Translations under genes and position numbers: made by a program
Assembly: GCF_000238095.2 (NCBI RefSeq)
Contig: NZ_JH815225.1
Coordinates: 1,183,863 to 1,247,862 of the forward strand
Reading direction: 5' to 3'
Origin: Peptoanaerobacter stomatis
GTDB lineage: Bacteria; Bacillota; Clostridia; Peptostreptococcales; Filifactoraceae
DNA length: 64,000 nucleotides
In this document: positions 35,888 to 59,833 of the stretch, one piece after another
Layout: every line of letters begins with the position of its first letter
How positions within the stretch are numbered: position 1 is the stretch's first letter
Notes under the pieces: generated by a model
The model's database searches: none
What the model was told of the DNA's origin: nothing
The model's input: the letters and a program-made list of their open reading frames with translations, nothing else

Positions 35888-36224
35888 AACTCCTCTATCT
35901 ATACTATGATTAGATTATAAATTCTAAAACATCAGTTCTCTTATACTAAAATCTTATATAATAATGGAAAATCTAACAATTAATTTTTCTGGTAGACTAT
36001 GTATATTAATTTTATATAATTATACAAGTTATCCATAATTTTATTAGAAAATAGTATTAATTAAAATAAAATATATATTTTCCACTTATTTCAGTATAAT
36101 AATTATACACTATAACATTGTAATTGAAAAATACACATCTTTAATGTATAATCATTATATAACGCAGTCATATGATTTATTTAAAATATTTTTTAAATTT
36201 TTACTAAGTAAAAGAGGTATCCTT
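35888..36224. other. 337-nt divergent intergenic region
   Basis: Between traX-like (-) and the small membrane protein (+). A MITE-like element occupies 35944-36056; the remainder is AT-rich and has no evident gene. Confidence 0.6.
35944..36056 (-). repeat. MITE-like repeat, family 1, copy C (113 bp)
   Basis: In reverse complement it starts TACTATTTTCTAATAAAATT and ends AAGATTTTAGTA. It aligns with the copies at 39659-39772 and 41529-41640 over its whole length with roughly 80 percent or better identity by eye. The two ends are imperfect inverted repeats (about 21 of 28 bases in copy A). Confidence 0.8.
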
Positions 36225-36581
36225 ATGAAAAATAAATTATATTACATCTTGATTGTAATTTTAATCATATACAATGTATTTCTCATAAATAAGCACTCTT
36301 CATTAAAAAAAGAGCTAATACAAATTCAAAAAATATCTACAAACGAAAAGAAAAAATCAGATATTAATGCTCATACCGATAATCCATATGAGCTTGCTGA
36401 CAGCAAATATCTTGATAATATAAAAAATATTCATATTTCATCAGATACTATGAGTATAAAATTCAGCATAGATGCATACAATGTTGAAGATATAGTGCGT
36501 GATACCGATAAATGCCTGAATAAAACCGCTCAAAGTGTAAGTATACAAGAAGATAAATACATAATATTGGAATACAGATAA
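36225..36581 (+). CDS. Small membrane-anchored protein, unknown
   Basis: ATG 36225 is chosen because AAAGAGGT is upstream and the protein then begins with a membrane helix (KNKLYYILIVILIIYNVFLI); longer in-frame starts lack a site. About 118 residues: one N-terminal helix, a short coiled segment (HSSLKKELIQIQKIS) and a small domain of about 60 residues at the C-terminus. It is followed 9 nt later by a second protein of the same layout. Bitopic pairs with this layout occur in type IV pilus (PilN/PilO-like) and cell-division complexes, but I see no specific motif, so no function is assigned. Confidence 0.7.
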   Translation: MKNKLYYILIVILIIYNVFLINKHSSLKKELIQIQKISTNEKKKSDINAHTDNPYELADSKYLDNIKNIHISSDTMSIKFSIDAYNVEDIVRDTDKCLNKTAQSVSIQEDKYIILEYR

Positions 36582-36590
36582 GGGTTTGAT

Positions 36591-37010
36591 ATGAAGATAA
36601 AAATGCAATCTATAAAAAAATCAGAGCTGTTCATAATGTTTATATTACTCGCAAACTTACTTATAATAACAATACCCTACAGTATAAAAAACATAAAAAT
36701 TAAACAGCAGATAAACAATGTGCAAATTTTAGAAACAAAAAACAATGAAAGCATCGACTTTTATAAAATTTACAAAGATTTTAACGATATTTTAAATAAA
36801 TTAGACTTGAATACAACTTACAAAAATTCTACTATATCTCAAAATTCAATGACTATAAATATAAAATTCCACTCAAACATAAATATGCTCACCAATTTGT
36901 TGGCTTACATACATAAAAATATACCTAATATGTCAATAATATCTGCCAATATAGAAAATGATACCAAGGAAGAAAACGAAATAACATTTTATATAGAAAA
37001 TCAACATTAA
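36591..37010 (+). CDS. Small membrane-anchored protein, unknown (partner of preceding gene)
   Basis: The 139-residue protein has one N-terminal membrane helix (ELFIMFILLANLLIITIPYSI), a short coiled-coil-like stretch (NIKIKQQINNVQILETKNN) and a compact domain (about 60-135). That domain's strand-helix-strand layout resembles PilO-type domains (SMTINIKFHSNINMLTNLLAYIH, then FYIENQH). The gene starts 9 nt after the stop of the previous one and GGGTTTG is the only upstream site, so translation may be coupled. A PilN/PilO-like or secretion-related role is a structural guess. No pilin or ATPase genes are near. Confidence 0.7.
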   Translation: MKIKMQSIKKSELFIMFILLANLLIITIPYSIKNIKIKQQINNVQILETKNNESIDFYKIYKDFNDILNKLDLNTTYKNSTISQNSMTINIKFHSNINMLTNLLAYIHKNIPNMSIISANIENDTKEENEITFYIENQH

Positions 37011-37091
37011 AAAACAATACTATCATCTAATTAAAATGTTTAAATATATTTTAATTTATAAATAGAGCTGGATATTAATACGATAATAAAT

Positions 37092-37120
37092 TTGAAAATA
37101 TATCAAAAATATGGTATATT
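37092..37120 (+). promoter_or_regulatory. Likely promoter of the hydrolase/MurF-like operon
   Basis: TTGAAA (37092-37097), 17-nt spacer ending in TATGG (extended -10 type), TATATT (37115-37120). The hydrolase start is at 37159. Confidence 0.65.
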
Positions 37121-37158
37121 AATTTGCCGGATACTTTACTTAAATTATGAGGTGAAAT

Positions 37159-37923
37159 TTGAATATAGAAATAGATAATATAAAAACAAATTACATAGAT
37201 TGTGGAAGTGGAGACACTATAGTGCTGTTGCACGGCTGGGGTTCCAATATAAACTTGTTAAACACCCTAACAACATCACTTAACGCAAACTATCGTGTAA
37301 TCGCATTAGACCTTCCGGGGTTCGGTCAAAGCAGTGAGCCCGATTATGCTATGAACGTAGACGATTACACAAATTTTGTCATAAACTTTATAAATAAATT
37401 AGGCATAAAAAAGACACATATATTGGGACATTCTTTTGGCGGAAGAATAATAATTAAAATGGTGAGCAAGCAAAATCTTCCTTTTCAAATAGACAAGATA
37501 GTACTTGTAGACTCTGCCGGAATAAAACCGAAAAAAAGTCTTAAAGTAGCATTTAAAATAAAAATTTTCAAGCTTTCAAGAAAATTATTTGAAGGCACTA
37601 TACTTGGTAAAATGTATCCCAATTTCATAGAAAATATGCGAAATAAAAGCGGTTCCGCTGATTATAACTCTGCAACACCTATAATGCGTCAAATATTGGT
37701 AAATGTAGTAAACGAAGATCTGACACCGCTAATTTCTAATATAAAAAATGAAACTCTGCTTGTATGGGGAGATAAAGATGATGCAACACCTATACAAGAC
37801 GCATATACTATGAACAAACTCATAAAAAACAGCGGACTTATAACTGTAAAAAACGCCGGACATTACAGTTATTTGGAACAGAAAGATTATGTAAATTCTG
37901 CTATATCAGCTTTCTTATCATAA
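37159..37923 (+). CDS. Alpha/beta hydrolase
   Basis: The 254-residue protein starts at TTG 37159 after GAGGTG. It has the alpha/beta-hydrolase fold: oxyanion region VLLHGWGSN (about 22-30), nucleophile elbow GHSFGG (Ser about 94), acid in WGDKDDATP and catalytic His in NAGHYSY. There is no signal peptide. It is followed 53 nt later by a membrane MurF-like ligase in the same direction; this pairing is found in other Clostridia as I recall, which suggests a linked role in cell-wall precursor or peptide metabolism. Substrate cannot be inferred. Confidence 0.9.
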   Translation: MNIEIDNIKTNYIDCGSGDTIVLLHGWGSNINLLNTLTTSLNANYRVIALDLPGFGQSSEPDYAMNVDDYTNFVINFINKLGIKKTHILGHSFGGRIIIKMVSKQNLPFQIDKIVLVDSAGIKPKKSLKVAFKIKIFKLSRKLFEGTILGKMYPNFIENMRNKSGSADYNSATPIMRQILVNVVNEDLTPLISNIKNETLLVWGDKDDATPIQDAYTMNKLIKNSGLITVKNAGHYSYLEQKDYVNSAISAFLS

Positions 37924-37976
37924 ATTTTTAATGAATTTATAATATTACATCAAATTTGTAAAAAAACGGAGAACAT

Positions 37977-39524
37977 ATGATATATATTTTCATAATATCG
38001 AATATATCAGCATTTATTTCACTTCTGATATATCACACACATATTTTTCAACTTAATTCGTACAACGAAATAGAGGAAAATAACTGGCTTAGAGAGAATT
38101 ATTATCCGATACTTGGTAGAAATCTCGGACTTATAATTTCAGCCTTATTCATCTTCATATTCAGTTTTAAATTCCAAGTGGCAGGTTTAATAATAGCTAC
38201 TATACTTAACATACTGACAGCAATTTTAAACAGAGAAAAAAATTCTAAAATACCTCTTAAATATACAAATAGAGTAAAAAGAATGCTCTTTACCGTTTGC
38301 ATTATGTATATAATAATGCTCTTATTTTTAATAATAGACCATAATTTTTTATATTTTGCAGTTTTAGAAGTTATATGTATGATAACACCATATATGCTAC
38401 TGCTGTCAAATACAATAAATAAGCCTATCGAAAAACACATAAATGACGGCTTTATAAACGATGCCAAACGCAAAATCAATTCAATGAATAATTTAACCGT
38501 AATAGGTGTAACAGGTAGTTACGGTAAAACAAGCGTAAAACATATATTAGGAAAATTACTCAGCAAAGACTACAACGTACTCATAACACCAGGCAATTAT
38601 AACACAACTCTTGGTGTAGTAATTACAATAAGAGAACATCTAAGTCCCATACATGACATATTTGTATGTGAAATGGGAGCAAAATCACTTGGAGAAATAA
38701 AAGAAATCTGTGATATTGTAAATCCGCGTTATGGTATAATTACATCCATAGGAATGCAACATCTCGAAACTTTTCTCAGCTTGGAAAATATAATAACAAC
38801 AAAATTTGAATTAGCAGAAGCACTTCCTGATTCAGGAACTGTATTTTTAAACTACGACAATGAGTATATAGTAAATCATCACATAAACAAAAATATAATC
38901 TCATACGCCGTCGACAACAAAAACTCAAACTTTGTTCCATATGACTTACAGGTAGACGAAAACGGTTCAAGTTTTAAATTAGATATAGATAACACACCTA
39001 CATCATTTAAAACAAAAGTGATCGGAAAACACAACGTGTTAAATATTACAGGTTGTATAGCTGTTGCGCACGAGTTAGGTGTGGACACAAGCACATTAAT
39101 TCAAAGAGTCGCACAATTAGAACAGGTAGAACACAGACAACAGATAATAAAAAAAGATTTTGGGCTTATAATAGATGACGCCTATAATTCCAATCCAAGC
39201 GGTGCAAAATCTGCATTAGATACATTGTCAATGTTTGATATGACAAAAATAGTGGTAACACCCGGAATGATAGAGCTTGGAGACAAACAATATGAGCTTA
39301 ACAAAGAATTTGGCAAGCAGATAGCAGATGTTGCAGATTATATAATACTCGTAGGCAAAAAACAAACCCTACCTATACAAGACGGAATAAAAGAAAAAAA
39401 TTATGATGAAAAAAATCTGTTTATAGAAGAAAGTATGCAGAAAGCTCTCTCACTTGCATATACGCTTAAAACAGATAAACAAAAAGCAATTCTTATAGAA
39501 AATGATCTGCCTGATAATTATTAA
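37977..39524 (+). CDS. Membrane-anchored MurF-like Mur ligase
   Basis: The 515-residue protein has four or five hydrophobic helices in the first about 150 residues. The Mur ligase ATPase domain follows (GVTGSYGKTS at about 180-189, NTTLGV, FVCEMGA, ITSIGMQHLETF) and then the C-terminal Mur domain (HRQQIIKKDFGLIIDDAYNSNPSG, ENDLPDNY at the end). The usual MurF N-terminal UDP-MurNAc-tripeptide-binding domain is missing and replaced by the membrane part. Such proteins add an amino acid or dipeptide in an ATP-dependent reaction; the acceptor may be membrane-bound. GGAG lies before the ATG. It is in an operon with the alpha/beta hydrolase and ends at a strong terminator. It should not be called murF without a test. 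Confidence 0.9.
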   Translation: MIYIFIISNISAFISLLIYHTHIFQLNSYNEIEENNWLRENYYPILGRNLGLIISALFIFIFSFKFQVAGLIIATILNILTAILNREKNSKIPLKYTNRVKRMLFTVCIMYIIMLLFLIIDHNFLYFAVLEVICMITPYMLLLSNTINKPIEKHINDGFINDAKRKINSMNNLTVIGVTGSYGKTSVKHILGKLLSKDYNVLITPGNYNTTLGVVITIREHLSPIHDIFVCEMGAKSLGEIKEICDIVNPRYGIITSIGMQHLETFLSLENIITTKFELAEALPDSGTVFLNYDNEYIVNHHINKNIISYAVDNKNSNFVPYDLQVDENGSSFKLDIDNTPTSFKTKVIGKHNVLNITGCIAVAHELGVDTSTLIQRVAQLEQVEHRQQIIKKDFGLIIDDAYNSNPSGAKSALDTLSMFDMTKIVVTPGMIELGDKQYELNKEFGKQIADVADYIILVGKKQTLPIQDGIKEKNYDEKNLFIEESMQKALSLAYTLKTDKQKAILIENDLPDNY

Positions 39525-39564
39525 TCCATCATTTTCCATTATTAATTAGATACTGATTAAGATA

Positions 39565-39625
39565 AAAAAAGTGATTTTAAATCATATGTATTTTATGTAT
39601 TACAGCGATTTAAAGTCACTTTTTT
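39565..39625 (+). terminator. Terminator of the MurF-like gene
   Basis: A 19-bp stem (AAAAAAGTGATTTTAAATC, 39565-39583, with 39607-39625; one G-T pair) and 23-nt loop end in a T-rich run, 40 nt past the stop. Confidence 0.75.
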
Positions 39626-39658
39626 ATTTTTTTACAAGCATTTTTCATAATACAGTTA

Positions 39659-39772
39659 TACTATTTTCTAATAAAATTATGGATAACTTATATAATTATA
39701 TAACATCAATATAAATAGTTTATTAAAAAAATTAATTATTATGTTTTTCCATTGTTCTATTAGATTTTAGTA
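39659..39772 (+). repeat. MITE-like repeat, family 1, copy A (114 bp)
   Basis: It begins TACTATTTTCTAATAAAATT and ends TTAGATTTTAGTA. The terminal inverted repeat reads TACTAttttCTAATAaAAtt at one end and TACTAaaatCTAATAgAAca at the other. It aligns over its full length with copies at 35944-36056 (reversed) and 41529-41640. Confidence 0.8.
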
Positions 39773-39885
39773 TTAAATCCTCTTTGGTTTTTATACTATG
39801 CGTTTTTTATACGATTGCTTTATCTCATATTATATATAACTTTTTCAAAAGTCTTTAGCATCACTATGTTTTCAAATTGGTTGAT

Positions 39886-39969
39886 TTATAAATACATAAA
39901 GCACACAGCTCCTAATATCATAGATAAAAATACTGTTAAATTTATCTTTTTTATCTTAGCTTCAGACAT
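39886..39969 (-). CDS. Possible 27-residue small membrane peptide
   Basis: ATG 39969 to TAA 39886 encodes a peptide with a basic start (SEAKIKKIN) and one hydrophobic helix (LTVFLSMILGAVCFMYL). A GGGTG lies about 10 nt upstream. The composition suits a small membrane protein, but length and lack of comparison make this tentative. Confidence 0.3.
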   Translation of the reverse strand: MSEAKIKKINLTVFLSMILGAVCFMYL

Positions 39970-40102
39970 AATCCATACACCCTTTCATAAAATCTCTATA
40001 TTTTTAAAATGATTATAATTTTTATTTTTAATATTATTATACAGCATTTTAAAAATATATCAAGAGTTTTTAAAAATATTTTTCTTATGAAAATAATTTT
40101 TA

Positions 40103-40131
40103 TTGACAAACATTATTTATTATCTTATAAT
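40103..40131 (+). promoter_or_regulatory. Consensus promoter of the DUF3793 gene
   Basis: TTGACA (40103-40108) and TATAAT (40126-40131) are perfect with a 17-nt spacer, 24 nt upstream of the start codon at 40155. Confidence 0.85.
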
Positions 40132-40154
40132 TTAGAAAAGGAGATATGATTTTT

Positions 40155-40694
40155 ATGTTTGAACAGTTACTTATTAGTCATTGTGCCCCTACTTTAGCAG
40201 GTATAAAAGTTGCCAATATGTTTATGTATAACGGTAGCAACCCGTACAGAGATGTAAAACATTGGAATAATATATTAAACGCTTTCGGATTGAAGCTTAT
40301 GATTATAAAAAAATCTGAAAATAAAGCCCTCATATACATATATAGAGTATCTATGCTCAGCCATCTGCTAAATTTGGCTGAAATACAAAATTTTTTAAAG
40401 GATTATGGATATACAAATTTTGATGATATGTCTTCGATTTTAAACCAACTTGTGAAAAGATTCAAATACTCTTCTTTTCCACATGAGATAGGTATATTTT
40501 TGGGATATCCTCTTGAAGATGTTAAGATGTTCATACTAAACAGGGGAAAAAATTACAAATGTTGTGGCATATGGAAAGTGTACTGCAACGAAAAAAAATC
40601 AACAGAAATTTTTGAAAGCTATAAGCATTGTACGTCTTCATTTTTAAATTTATTTTTAAGCGGTAAGAACATAACTAGTTTATGTGTGGCTTGA
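40155..40694 (+). CDS. DUF3793 family protein
   Basis: ATG 40155 is preferred because AAAGGAG lies about 10 nt upstream; an ATG at 40146 is too close to that site. The protein (179 residues) matches DUF3793: it opens FEQLLISHCAPTLAGIKVANMF, contains FPHEIGIFLGYPLEDVKMFI, and ends with a cysteine-containing CCGIWKVYCNEKKS segment. The function is unknown, but the family is often next to a flavodoxin, as here (333 nt downstream), so a role in flavodoxin-linked redox or iron stress is inferred. It has a consensus promoter. Cytoplasmic. Confidence 0.85.
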   Translation: MFEQLLISHCAPTLAGIKVANMFMYNGSNPYRDVKHWNNILNAFGLKLMIIKKSENKALIYIYRVSMLSHLLNLAEIQNFLKDYGYTNFDDMSSILNQLVKRFKYSSFPHEIGIFLGYPLEDVKMFILNRGKNYKCCGIWKVYCNEKKSTEIFESYKHCTSSFLNLFLSGKNITSLCVA

Positions 40695-41027
40695 TATTTA
40701 TCACATTGAAAAAACTTATTAATATATTTTAATTAAACTGTTGAAATAATTATTTTATATCTTAATGATAAGAAAATATCTTCTAAAAAATATTCATTTT
40801 ACAAACAGTATTTATCATAAATTTTAATTAAATGATGATATTAATAAAAATTTTGCAAATTTGAATTTTTTATATTGTGTTTATAATGGCAAAGACCATT
40901 TATATAAATTTTTATATGTGATACTGAGCTATGTTTAAAACATTATTTTTAATTTATATATTTCTTAAAATATTATTTTTTAATTGTTGCTCGGTATAAA
41001 AATTAAATCATAAAGGAGTAGTTAAAA
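40695..41027. other. 333-nt intergenic region before flavodoxin
   Basis: AT-rich and without a recognisable gene, clear hairpin terminator or clean copy of the repeat family. It presumably contains the flavodoxin promoter; no good -35/-10 pair was fixed. Confidence 0.5.
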
Positions 41028-41450
41028 ATGAGTAAAGTAGCAGTTGTTTATTGGTCAGGTACAGGAAATACAGAAGCTATGGCTAATGCAGTAGTTGAAG
41101 GCGCAAAAGCTGCAGGTGCTGAAGTGGATTTAATATTCAGTGATGATTTTGGCCCTGATAAATTGGATGATTACGAAGCAATAGCATTCGGCTGTCCTGC
41201 AATGGGTAATGAAGAACTTGAAGAATCAAGTTTTGAACCTATGTTTGCAAGCGTAGAAGGAAATCTTGGCGGAAAGAAAATAGCTATATTCGGTTCTTAT
41301 GAATGGAATGACGGTCAATGGATGAAAGATTGGGAAGAAAGAGTTAAAGGCGGAGCAGGAAATCTTGTATATCCGGCACTTCCTGCATATGACAATCCTG
41401 ATGCGGATGCTCTTGAAAAATGTAAAGAACTTGGAAAAGCTCTTGCATAG
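41028..41450 (+). CDS. Flavodoxin
   Basis: The 140-residue protein has the flavodoxin short-chain pattern: VAVVYWSGTGNTEAMA (FMN phosphate loop), AIAFGCPAMGNEELE and IAIFGSYEWNDGQWM lining the flavin. It is a soluble low-potential electron carrier that can replace ferredoxin, often under iron limitation. AAAGGAG lies before the ATG. It stands after a DUF3793 gene and ends at a clear terminator. The length and the absence of the long-chain insertion are typical of clostridial flavodoxins. Confidence 0.95.
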   Translation: MSKVAVVYWSGTGNTEAMANAVVEGAKAAGAEVDLIFSDDFGPDKLDDYEAIAFGCPAMGNEELEESSFEPMFASVEGNLGGKKIAIFGSYEWNDGQWMKDWEERVKGGAGNLVYPALPAYDNPDADALEKCKELGKALA

Positions 41451-41476
41451 TAGTTATAACACCTATTAAATAATTT

Positions 41477-41504
41477 AAGGGACTGTAAGTAAAATCAGTC
41501 CCTT
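41477..41504 (+). terminator. Terminator of flavodoxin
   Basis: AAGGGACTG (41477-41485) pairs with CAGTCCCTT (41496-41504), followed by a run of T. Confidence 0.9.
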
Positions 41505-41528
41505 TTTTTATGATATTTATTATACTAA

Positions 41529-41640
41529 TACTATTTTCTAATAAAATTATAGATAACTTGTATAATTATATAAAATTAATATATAGTCTACAAGAAAAAT
41601 TAATTATTATGTTTTTCCGTTATTCTATAAGATTTTAGCA
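41529..41640 (+). repeat. MITE-like repeat, family 1, copy B (112 bp)
   Basis: It begins TACTATTTTCTAATAAAATT and ends AAGATTTTAGCA, and aligns with copies A and C through the whole interior (for example AATTAATTATTATGTTTTTCC is shared with copy A). Confidence 0.8.
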
Positions 41641-41736
41641 TAAAAGCAAAAAAACTTATATATCTATTAATTAAATAAATATTTATATGATATTCTCAAA
41701 TATATTAAAATATCGATGTTTGATTGAATATTAGTA

Positions 41737-54396: not shown

Positions 54397-54504
54397 TTGC
54401 TTTCTAATAAAATTATGTATAACTTATATAACATTAATATAAATAGTTTATTTGAAAAATTAATTATTATGTTTTTTAATTATCCTACTAATTAGGTAAT
54501 AGTA
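54397..54504 (+). repeat. MITE-like repeat, family 1, copy D (diverged)
   Basis: Shares TTTCTAATAAAATTATG, then AACTTATATAACATTAATAT and AAAAATTAATTATTATGTTTTT in the same order as copies A-C. The right end has changed to AATTAGGTAATAGTA, which in reverse reads TACTATTACCTAATT, the shared terminal motif. Confidence 0.65.
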
Positions 54505-59709: not shown

Positions 59710-59833
59710 TACTAAAATCTAATAGGATAATGGATATTTTTATTTTTAGGAATTTATTAGCTAAGTAAAATTAAGTCTATTTAAAACAAGCAACTTATAT
59801 AAATTTTGTCCATAAATCAAAAGAATATTAGTA
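59710..59833 (+). repeat. MITE-like repeat, family 2, copy E (124 bp)
   Basis: Starts TACTAAAATCTAATAGGATA, i.e. the right terminal repeat of family 1, and ends ATATTAGTA, whose reverse begins TACTAATATTC. The interior differs from family 1 but matches 53117-53199. Shared ends with a different middle is typical of non-autonomous transposon families. Confidence 0.6.

Follow-up and report, generated by a model that had tools for sequence, protein, structure and literature searches.

Intergenic repeats of Peptoanaerobacter stomatis are very likely MITEs moved by an IS630-type transposase that duplicates a 3-bp TNA target

What moves the short, non-coding repeats that recur between the genes of Peptoanaerobacter stomatis, and into which target are they inserted? 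We addressed this question from a stretch of 64,000 nucleotides (the window; contig NZ_JH815225.1, positions 1,183,863 to 1,247,862), which contains a repeat family, here MITE-A, together with an element of a second type. The evidence makes it very likely that these repeats are MITEs moved by the IS630/Tc1/mariner-type transposase of a 1.1-kb insertion sequence (IS), with duplication of the target trinucleotide TNA. The relevant features of the window are as follows.

39659..39772, plus strand: MITE-A copy of 114 bp, flanked by TTA (39656-39658) and TTA (39773-39775)
41529..41640, plus strand: MITE-A copy of 112 bp, flanked by TAA (41526-41528) and TAA (41641-41643)
35944..36056, minus strand: MITE-A copy of 113 bp, flanked by TTA (35941-35943) and TTA (36057-36059), read on the plus strand
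54397..54504, plus strand: MITE-A copy, degenerate and eroded at its ends, matched by the profile at 54397-54493 (E=3.1e-15)
59710..59833, plus strand: second, distinct MITE type of 124 bp, ends placed by eye, with TAA/TAA flanks

All four MITE-A copies that a first-pass annotation had aligned by eye were recovered at their coordinates by local BLAST: with 39659-39772 as the query, 35944-36056 (minus strand) and 41529-41638 were each 88% identical, and of the diverged copy only 54401-54490 aligned, at 83%. The query itself is 100% identical over 114 bp to another copy in the same genome (G000:C1:131237-131350, where G000 denotes P. stomatis). MITE-A is typically 112-114 bp long and runs from TACTA to TAGTA. 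Its terminal inverted repeats, TACTATTTTCTAATAAAATTATGGATA and TACTAAAATCTAATAGAACAATGGA, are imperfect, as the annotation had described them, but at 24-27 bp they are longer than it had quoted. The element at 59710-59833 carries ends of the same kind (TACTAAAATCTAATAGGATAATGG...ATATTAGTA). A 24-bp end, TACTAAAATCTAATAGAACAATGG, matched the window at three positions with up to 3 mismatches, namely two MITE-A copies and the element at 59710, and had no match in 100 dinucleotide shuffles of the window.

The annotation had proposed a genome search with a profile of the copies, adding that confinement to the window would speak against a mobile family. We built a sequence-only profile from 39 aligned MITE-A copies, scored 150 candidates per genome (150 of 5860 in the P. 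stomatis genome) and accepted matches at E≤0.001. At least 65 matches were found, spread over all three contigs, with 51 at E≤1e-12 and four in the window; the profile counts are perhaps lower bounds, since 150 candidates were scored in each genome. An earlier DNA search (40 candidates scored) had given at least 41 matches, one merely a 31-base end. With 150 candidates scored in each, the profile found one weak match (E=4.8e-4) in the same-genus genome G001 and none at E≤0.001 in a second one, G002. A plain DNA search of G001 recovered related elements about 70-73% identical across most or all of their length, and the 24-bp end (up to 3 mismatches) occurred 35 times in P. stomatis, 140 times in G001 and not at all in G002; the reversed control pattern was absent from all three. 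The sister genome G001 holds a separate, larger MITE set of several lengths, with some elements nested or near each other; 26 of its 30 well-ended elements measure 122-133 bp. Side by side, the two sets suggest parallel species-specific amplification. Because two P. stomatis MITE-A copies are 100% identical and the copies of the IS described below are 99.4-100% identical, recent activity is also suggested. Outside the genus, MITE-A was not recovered convincingly: 10 of 40 genomes had matches at E≤0.001, and those beyond P. stomatis and G001 comprised 26-69 A+T-rich bases, which we took as chance.

The copies had been described as intergenic and non-coding, and this held for the well-ended elements of the genome samples. 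None of the 11 well-ended elements in the P. stomatis sample and none of the 30 in the G001 sample overlapped an ORF of at least 100 aa, against 87% and 83%, respectively, of random placements.

IS630/Tc1/mariner elements classically duplicate TA, which is taken as a hallmark of the group. A TA duplication had also been guessed for the present repeats. To avoid a choice of register, we paired facing ends by positions 6-24 of the terminal repeat only, in 464 kb of the P. stomatis genome, made up of the window and 20 further stretches, and in 397 kb of G001. The resulting 92 pairs were reduced to 41 with at most one mismatch per terminal pentamer (TACTA/TAGTA); the other 51, together with 4 pairs from G002, were dropped. 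Left and right flanking 3-mers were identical in 37 of these 41 elements (TAA in 19, TTA in 17, TGA in 1), compared with a mean of 18.0 and a maximum of 28 in 2000 shuffles of the same 41 elements. Flanking 2-mers were identical in 3/41 and 4-mers in 0/41. For G001 alone the count was 28/30 (shuffle maximum 23), and for P. stomatis alone it was 9/11, a value reachable by shuffling (maximum 9). A wider set of further loci with looser end scores, in which some pairings arise by chance and some copies are worn, gave equal 3-mers in 29/45 cases for P. stomatis and 44/55 for G001, with shuffle maxima of 27 and 33 in 5000 shuffles each; 3-mers were unequal in the remaining 16/45 and 11/55. Among the 73 equal pairs of the wider set, 3 were TGA and all others TAA or TTA. 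Outside ORFs of at least 100 aa, TCA and TGA together make up 21% of TNA in the P. stomatis sample and 25% in the G001 sample, so the middle base of the target is preferentially A or T. These flanks, together with the empty sites described below, show the TA guess to have been wrong; the duplication is the 3-bp TNA. Candidate excision scars of the form TWA-TAC-TWA, counted after masking because unmasked counts include the elements' own ends, did not favour a repeated duplication, with same versus different trinucleotides at 6 vs 8 in P. stomatis, 11 vs 11 in G001 and 7 vs 5 in G002.

Four of the 35 P. stomatis matches to the 24-bp end belong to a 1108-bp IS with two overlapping ORFs and the ends TACTAAAATCTAATAGAACTATGG and TACTAAACTCTATTTAAGCTATGG, present in four copies. 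This multi-copy IS630-type element supplies the transposase gene with the same ends that the first-pass annotation had suggested looking for. ORFA matches HTH models and the NCBIfam IS630 model NF033545 (77.3 bits, under the cut-off of 100 when taken alone), with a weaker IS481 match (32.7 bits). ORFB matches Pfam DDE_3 (E=6.2e-22) and NF033545 (132.7 bits, cut-off 100); its single-sequence structure prediction was poor (mean pLDDT 43). An HTH plus DDE transposase, terminal inverted repeats and a length within the approximately 0.95-1.25 kb given for the family (PMC9977792) are all features of IS630 elements. Relative to ORFA, ORFB is read in the -1 frame, and an A7T run precedes the FQDEAGF codons by 66 bases in 7/7 sequences (from G000, G001, G002 and two further genomes, G007 and G697). 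The more distant relatives G353 and G563 have A7T at -72 and A8T at -63, respectively; no A7T-like run was present within the stretch scanned in G659, and an A. caldus plasmid also entered into the scan gave no reading. The conserved run would be consistent with a programmed -1 frameshift fusing ORFA and ORFB.

The IS measures 1108 bp in G000, 1107 bp in G001, 1139 bp in G007, 1102 and 1110 bp in G002 and 1088 bp in G697, and ORFB is 73-100% identical to the query in the copies with both ends located. The transposase was found at E≤1e-40 in 4 of 198 genomes of the order, P. stomatis included, and at E≤1e-30, P. stomatis apart, in two genomes in a draw of 398 from the phylum and two in a draw of 391 from the class; the best-ranked plasmid match was 42% identical. 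Within G002 (loci L168, L170, L173, L176 and L177), 12 of 15 ORFB matches contain in-frame stops and the 24-bp end is absent; in this genome a lineage of the same IS may be dying out. The viral contigs IMGVR_UViG_2513237271_000002 and IMGVR_UViG_2513237271_000001 (L251 and L260), which share a source number, also carry stretches of near-identical IS630-type copies, with TTA outside the right end in one and outside the left end in the other. The two pieces are possibly one insertion split over two contigs. The sequence flanking one viral-contig copy of the IS had no match in G000-G002.

The MITEs and the IS are linked by their ends. The right end of MITE-A is identical to the left end of the IS at 24 of 25 bases (E=5e-8), and its left end matches the IS at 22 of 27 bases (E=0.001); the interior of MITE-A has no convincing similarity to the IS, and sharing is confined to the ends. 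In the second MITE type, 32 bp of the left end correspond to the IS left end at 87.5%. A 132-bp MITE of G001 consists of IS positions 1-52 (88%) joined to positions 1031-1108 (82%) and is, judged by this alignment, an internal deletion of the IS. The repeats are thus short, non-coding and multi-copy, bounded by terminal inverted repeats and a target duplication, and share their ends with an autonomous element of the same genome. The ends, the copy number, the 3-bp duplication, the sharing with the IS and the deletion-derived MITE of G001 can all be read from sequence, and we infer that MITE-A is mobilised by this particular transposase.

Where both ends of an IS copy could be located (10 copies from five genomes), 8 had equal flanking 3-mers: 3/4 in G000, 1/1 in G001, 1/1 in G007, 1/2 in G002 and 2/2 in G697. 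The last of these genomes represents another family of the same class, and its two copies, 98.6% identical to each other, sit at TTA/TTA and TAA/TAA. The two exceptions, L139 in G000 and L170 in G002, both have TTA/TAA; by eye, the left flank of L139 differs from the continuous sequence of G001, and a rearrangement is therefore likely there. In a side observation, an IS630-type element lies within or next to one IS30-like transposase gene at both L139 and L166, which come from two species, although its position differs between them. The ten copies leave out G659 and a third match in G697, both partial, and the relatives G353 and G563 (51-55% amino-acid identity), whose 3-mers are unequal (TCA/TTA and TCA/TTG) and were taken as uninformative because the two flanks, in the raw DNA, resemble parts of different genes. 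Since the duplication is a 3-bp TNA in the MITEs and in 8/10 IS copies, and not the TA of the IS630 family, we regard the IS as a variant of the IS630 group rather than a canonical member.

Flanks were joined for 124 candidate elements in a search for empty sites within genomes, which gave at least two. In the cleaner one (L014), a MITE-A copy interrupts the end of another element, as GCTTTTA-MITE-TTAGTATATAT. Removing the MITE and one TTA yields GCTTTTAGTA, which matches ...CTTTTAGTA in a related element (L209) and ...TTTTAGTA in others. In the second, removing the MITE at L221:15323-15444 of G001 and one TAA gives a sequence that aligns to a paralogous upstream region (81%, E=1.9e-12); the junction is ungapped, although the alignment has a gap of two bases lying 10 bases left of it, which makes this site the weaker. 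A G001 copy of the IS, flanked by TCA/TCA, interrupts an IS30-like gene whose P. stomatis homologue is continuous there by eye; on the left side the last 10 bases agree exactly, and the right side is unaligned. Downstream of the G001 gene that matches 41028-41450 (an 81% identical stretch), no MITE-A-like element was seen by eye, in intergenic DNA whose divergence precludes an exact empty site. Together with the genome-wide copies, the sharp shared ends, the duplication and the IS, the empty sites support the proposal of the first-pass annotation that these are non-autonomous elements served by a transposase encoded elsewhere.

Could the same MITEs and IS630-type transposase nevertheless duplicate the canonical TA, with elements running CTA...TAG and the outer TWA representing a target preference only? 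A TA does lie just inside the proposed TNA at every intact end, an IS630-group element studied in vitro is described as duplicating TA (PMC2170065), and the best relative on a named plasmid is flanked by TA, as judged by eye in one copy. Such a reading, however, requires the target TA to have had identical 3-mers to its left and right in 37/41 cases, and at L014 it predicts a longer sequence than the ...GCTTTTAGTA that is restored once 3 bp are taken out. We therefore consider a TA duplication improbable.

Slightly less probable still is that a different, unseen transposase, for example of the IS5/IS1031 type, moves the repeats. The IS5/IS1031 group makes TNA duplications, with which the duplication observed here would fit, and the MITE-A interior is unmatched in the IS630-type element. 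Yet the only transposase gene found bounded by these ends is IS630-type, with the same TNA flanks, and the other long end pairs look like chance pairings; at E≤0.001 in Pfam and NCBIfam, neither ORFA nor ORFB matched an IS5/IS1031 or PIF/Harbinger transposase. A role of the repeats as functional RNA or DNA signals, in place of a transposon nature, would agree with the location of well-ended elements between genes but is largely refuted and very improbable. Across 39 copies the consensus fold has an energy of -0.07 kcal/mol, and the window yields no Rfam hit at the gathering threshold; the conserved RNA structure that the annotation had named as a possible counter-sign is thus not found. Further points against such a role are the sharp ends with target duplications, and the one weak and zero profile matches among the 150 candidates scored in G001 and G002, respectively.

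Movement by the IS630-type transposase could thus proceed as follows. The 1.1-kb IS in the same cell would provide a cut-and-paste DDE transposase of the IS630/Tc1/mariner type, presumably as an ORFA-ORFB fusion made by -1 frameshifting at the conserved A7T run. The enzyme would recognise the approximately 25-bp terminal repeats, excise the MITE and insert it at T-N-A, mostly TAA or TTA, by a strand transfer with a putative 3-bp stagger that duplicates TNA. The reaction would resemble that of ISY100 except for the 3-bp stagger, with the outer T and A of the target retained.

The kind of system is known, namely MITEs with an IS630-group IS, and what differs is the target rule, TNA. We think it likely that an IS630-group clade, found in five genomes from two families of one class, has changed its target from TA to a 3-bp TNA by adding one base between T and A, in parallel to the TAA of Fot elements, and that its own MITE swarms use TNA in at least two species. 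A clade that keeps the T and the A with one base between them offers a natural comparison for the residues that set target choice and stagger. MITEs multiply the evidence, since each genome holds dozens of insertions that record which target a single transposase uses, and an annotation that assumes TA would misplace element ends by about 2 bp.

Among titles and abstract openings in a literature weighted towards open access, no bacterial IS630-type element with a 3-bp duplication appeared. Several described systems share parts of the present one. ISY100 is likewise an element of the IS630 type, a likeness that covers a 1.1-kb IS, an HTH plus DDE transposase and terminal inverted repeats; it is described as inserting almost only into TA, which is duplicated (PMC2170065), whereas the clade considered here duplicates TNA. 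Sailor (DD82E), an ITm element of prokaryotes and eukaryotes, also has a non-TA duplication by its description, but this is mostly the 4-bp TATA (PMC8533490), and the spacing of its catalytic domain is distinct. Fot elements, eukaryotic members of the pogo superfamily within the same ITm group, are reported to make a 3-bp TAA duplication in most cases (PMC7386202); theirs are eukaryotic pogo transposases, whereas the bacterial transposase described here matches the IS630 model. Closest among the systems seen, as likened by description, is RUP of Streptococcus pneumoniae, a 107-bp intergenic, non-coding repeat whose ends resemble those of IS630-Spn1, the IS630-type IS proposed to mobilise it in trans (PMC2229807). 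RUP inserts at TA-containing sites (PMC2229807), whereas the present MITEs do not follow that rule and MITE-A is bounded by the 3-bp duplication TNA.
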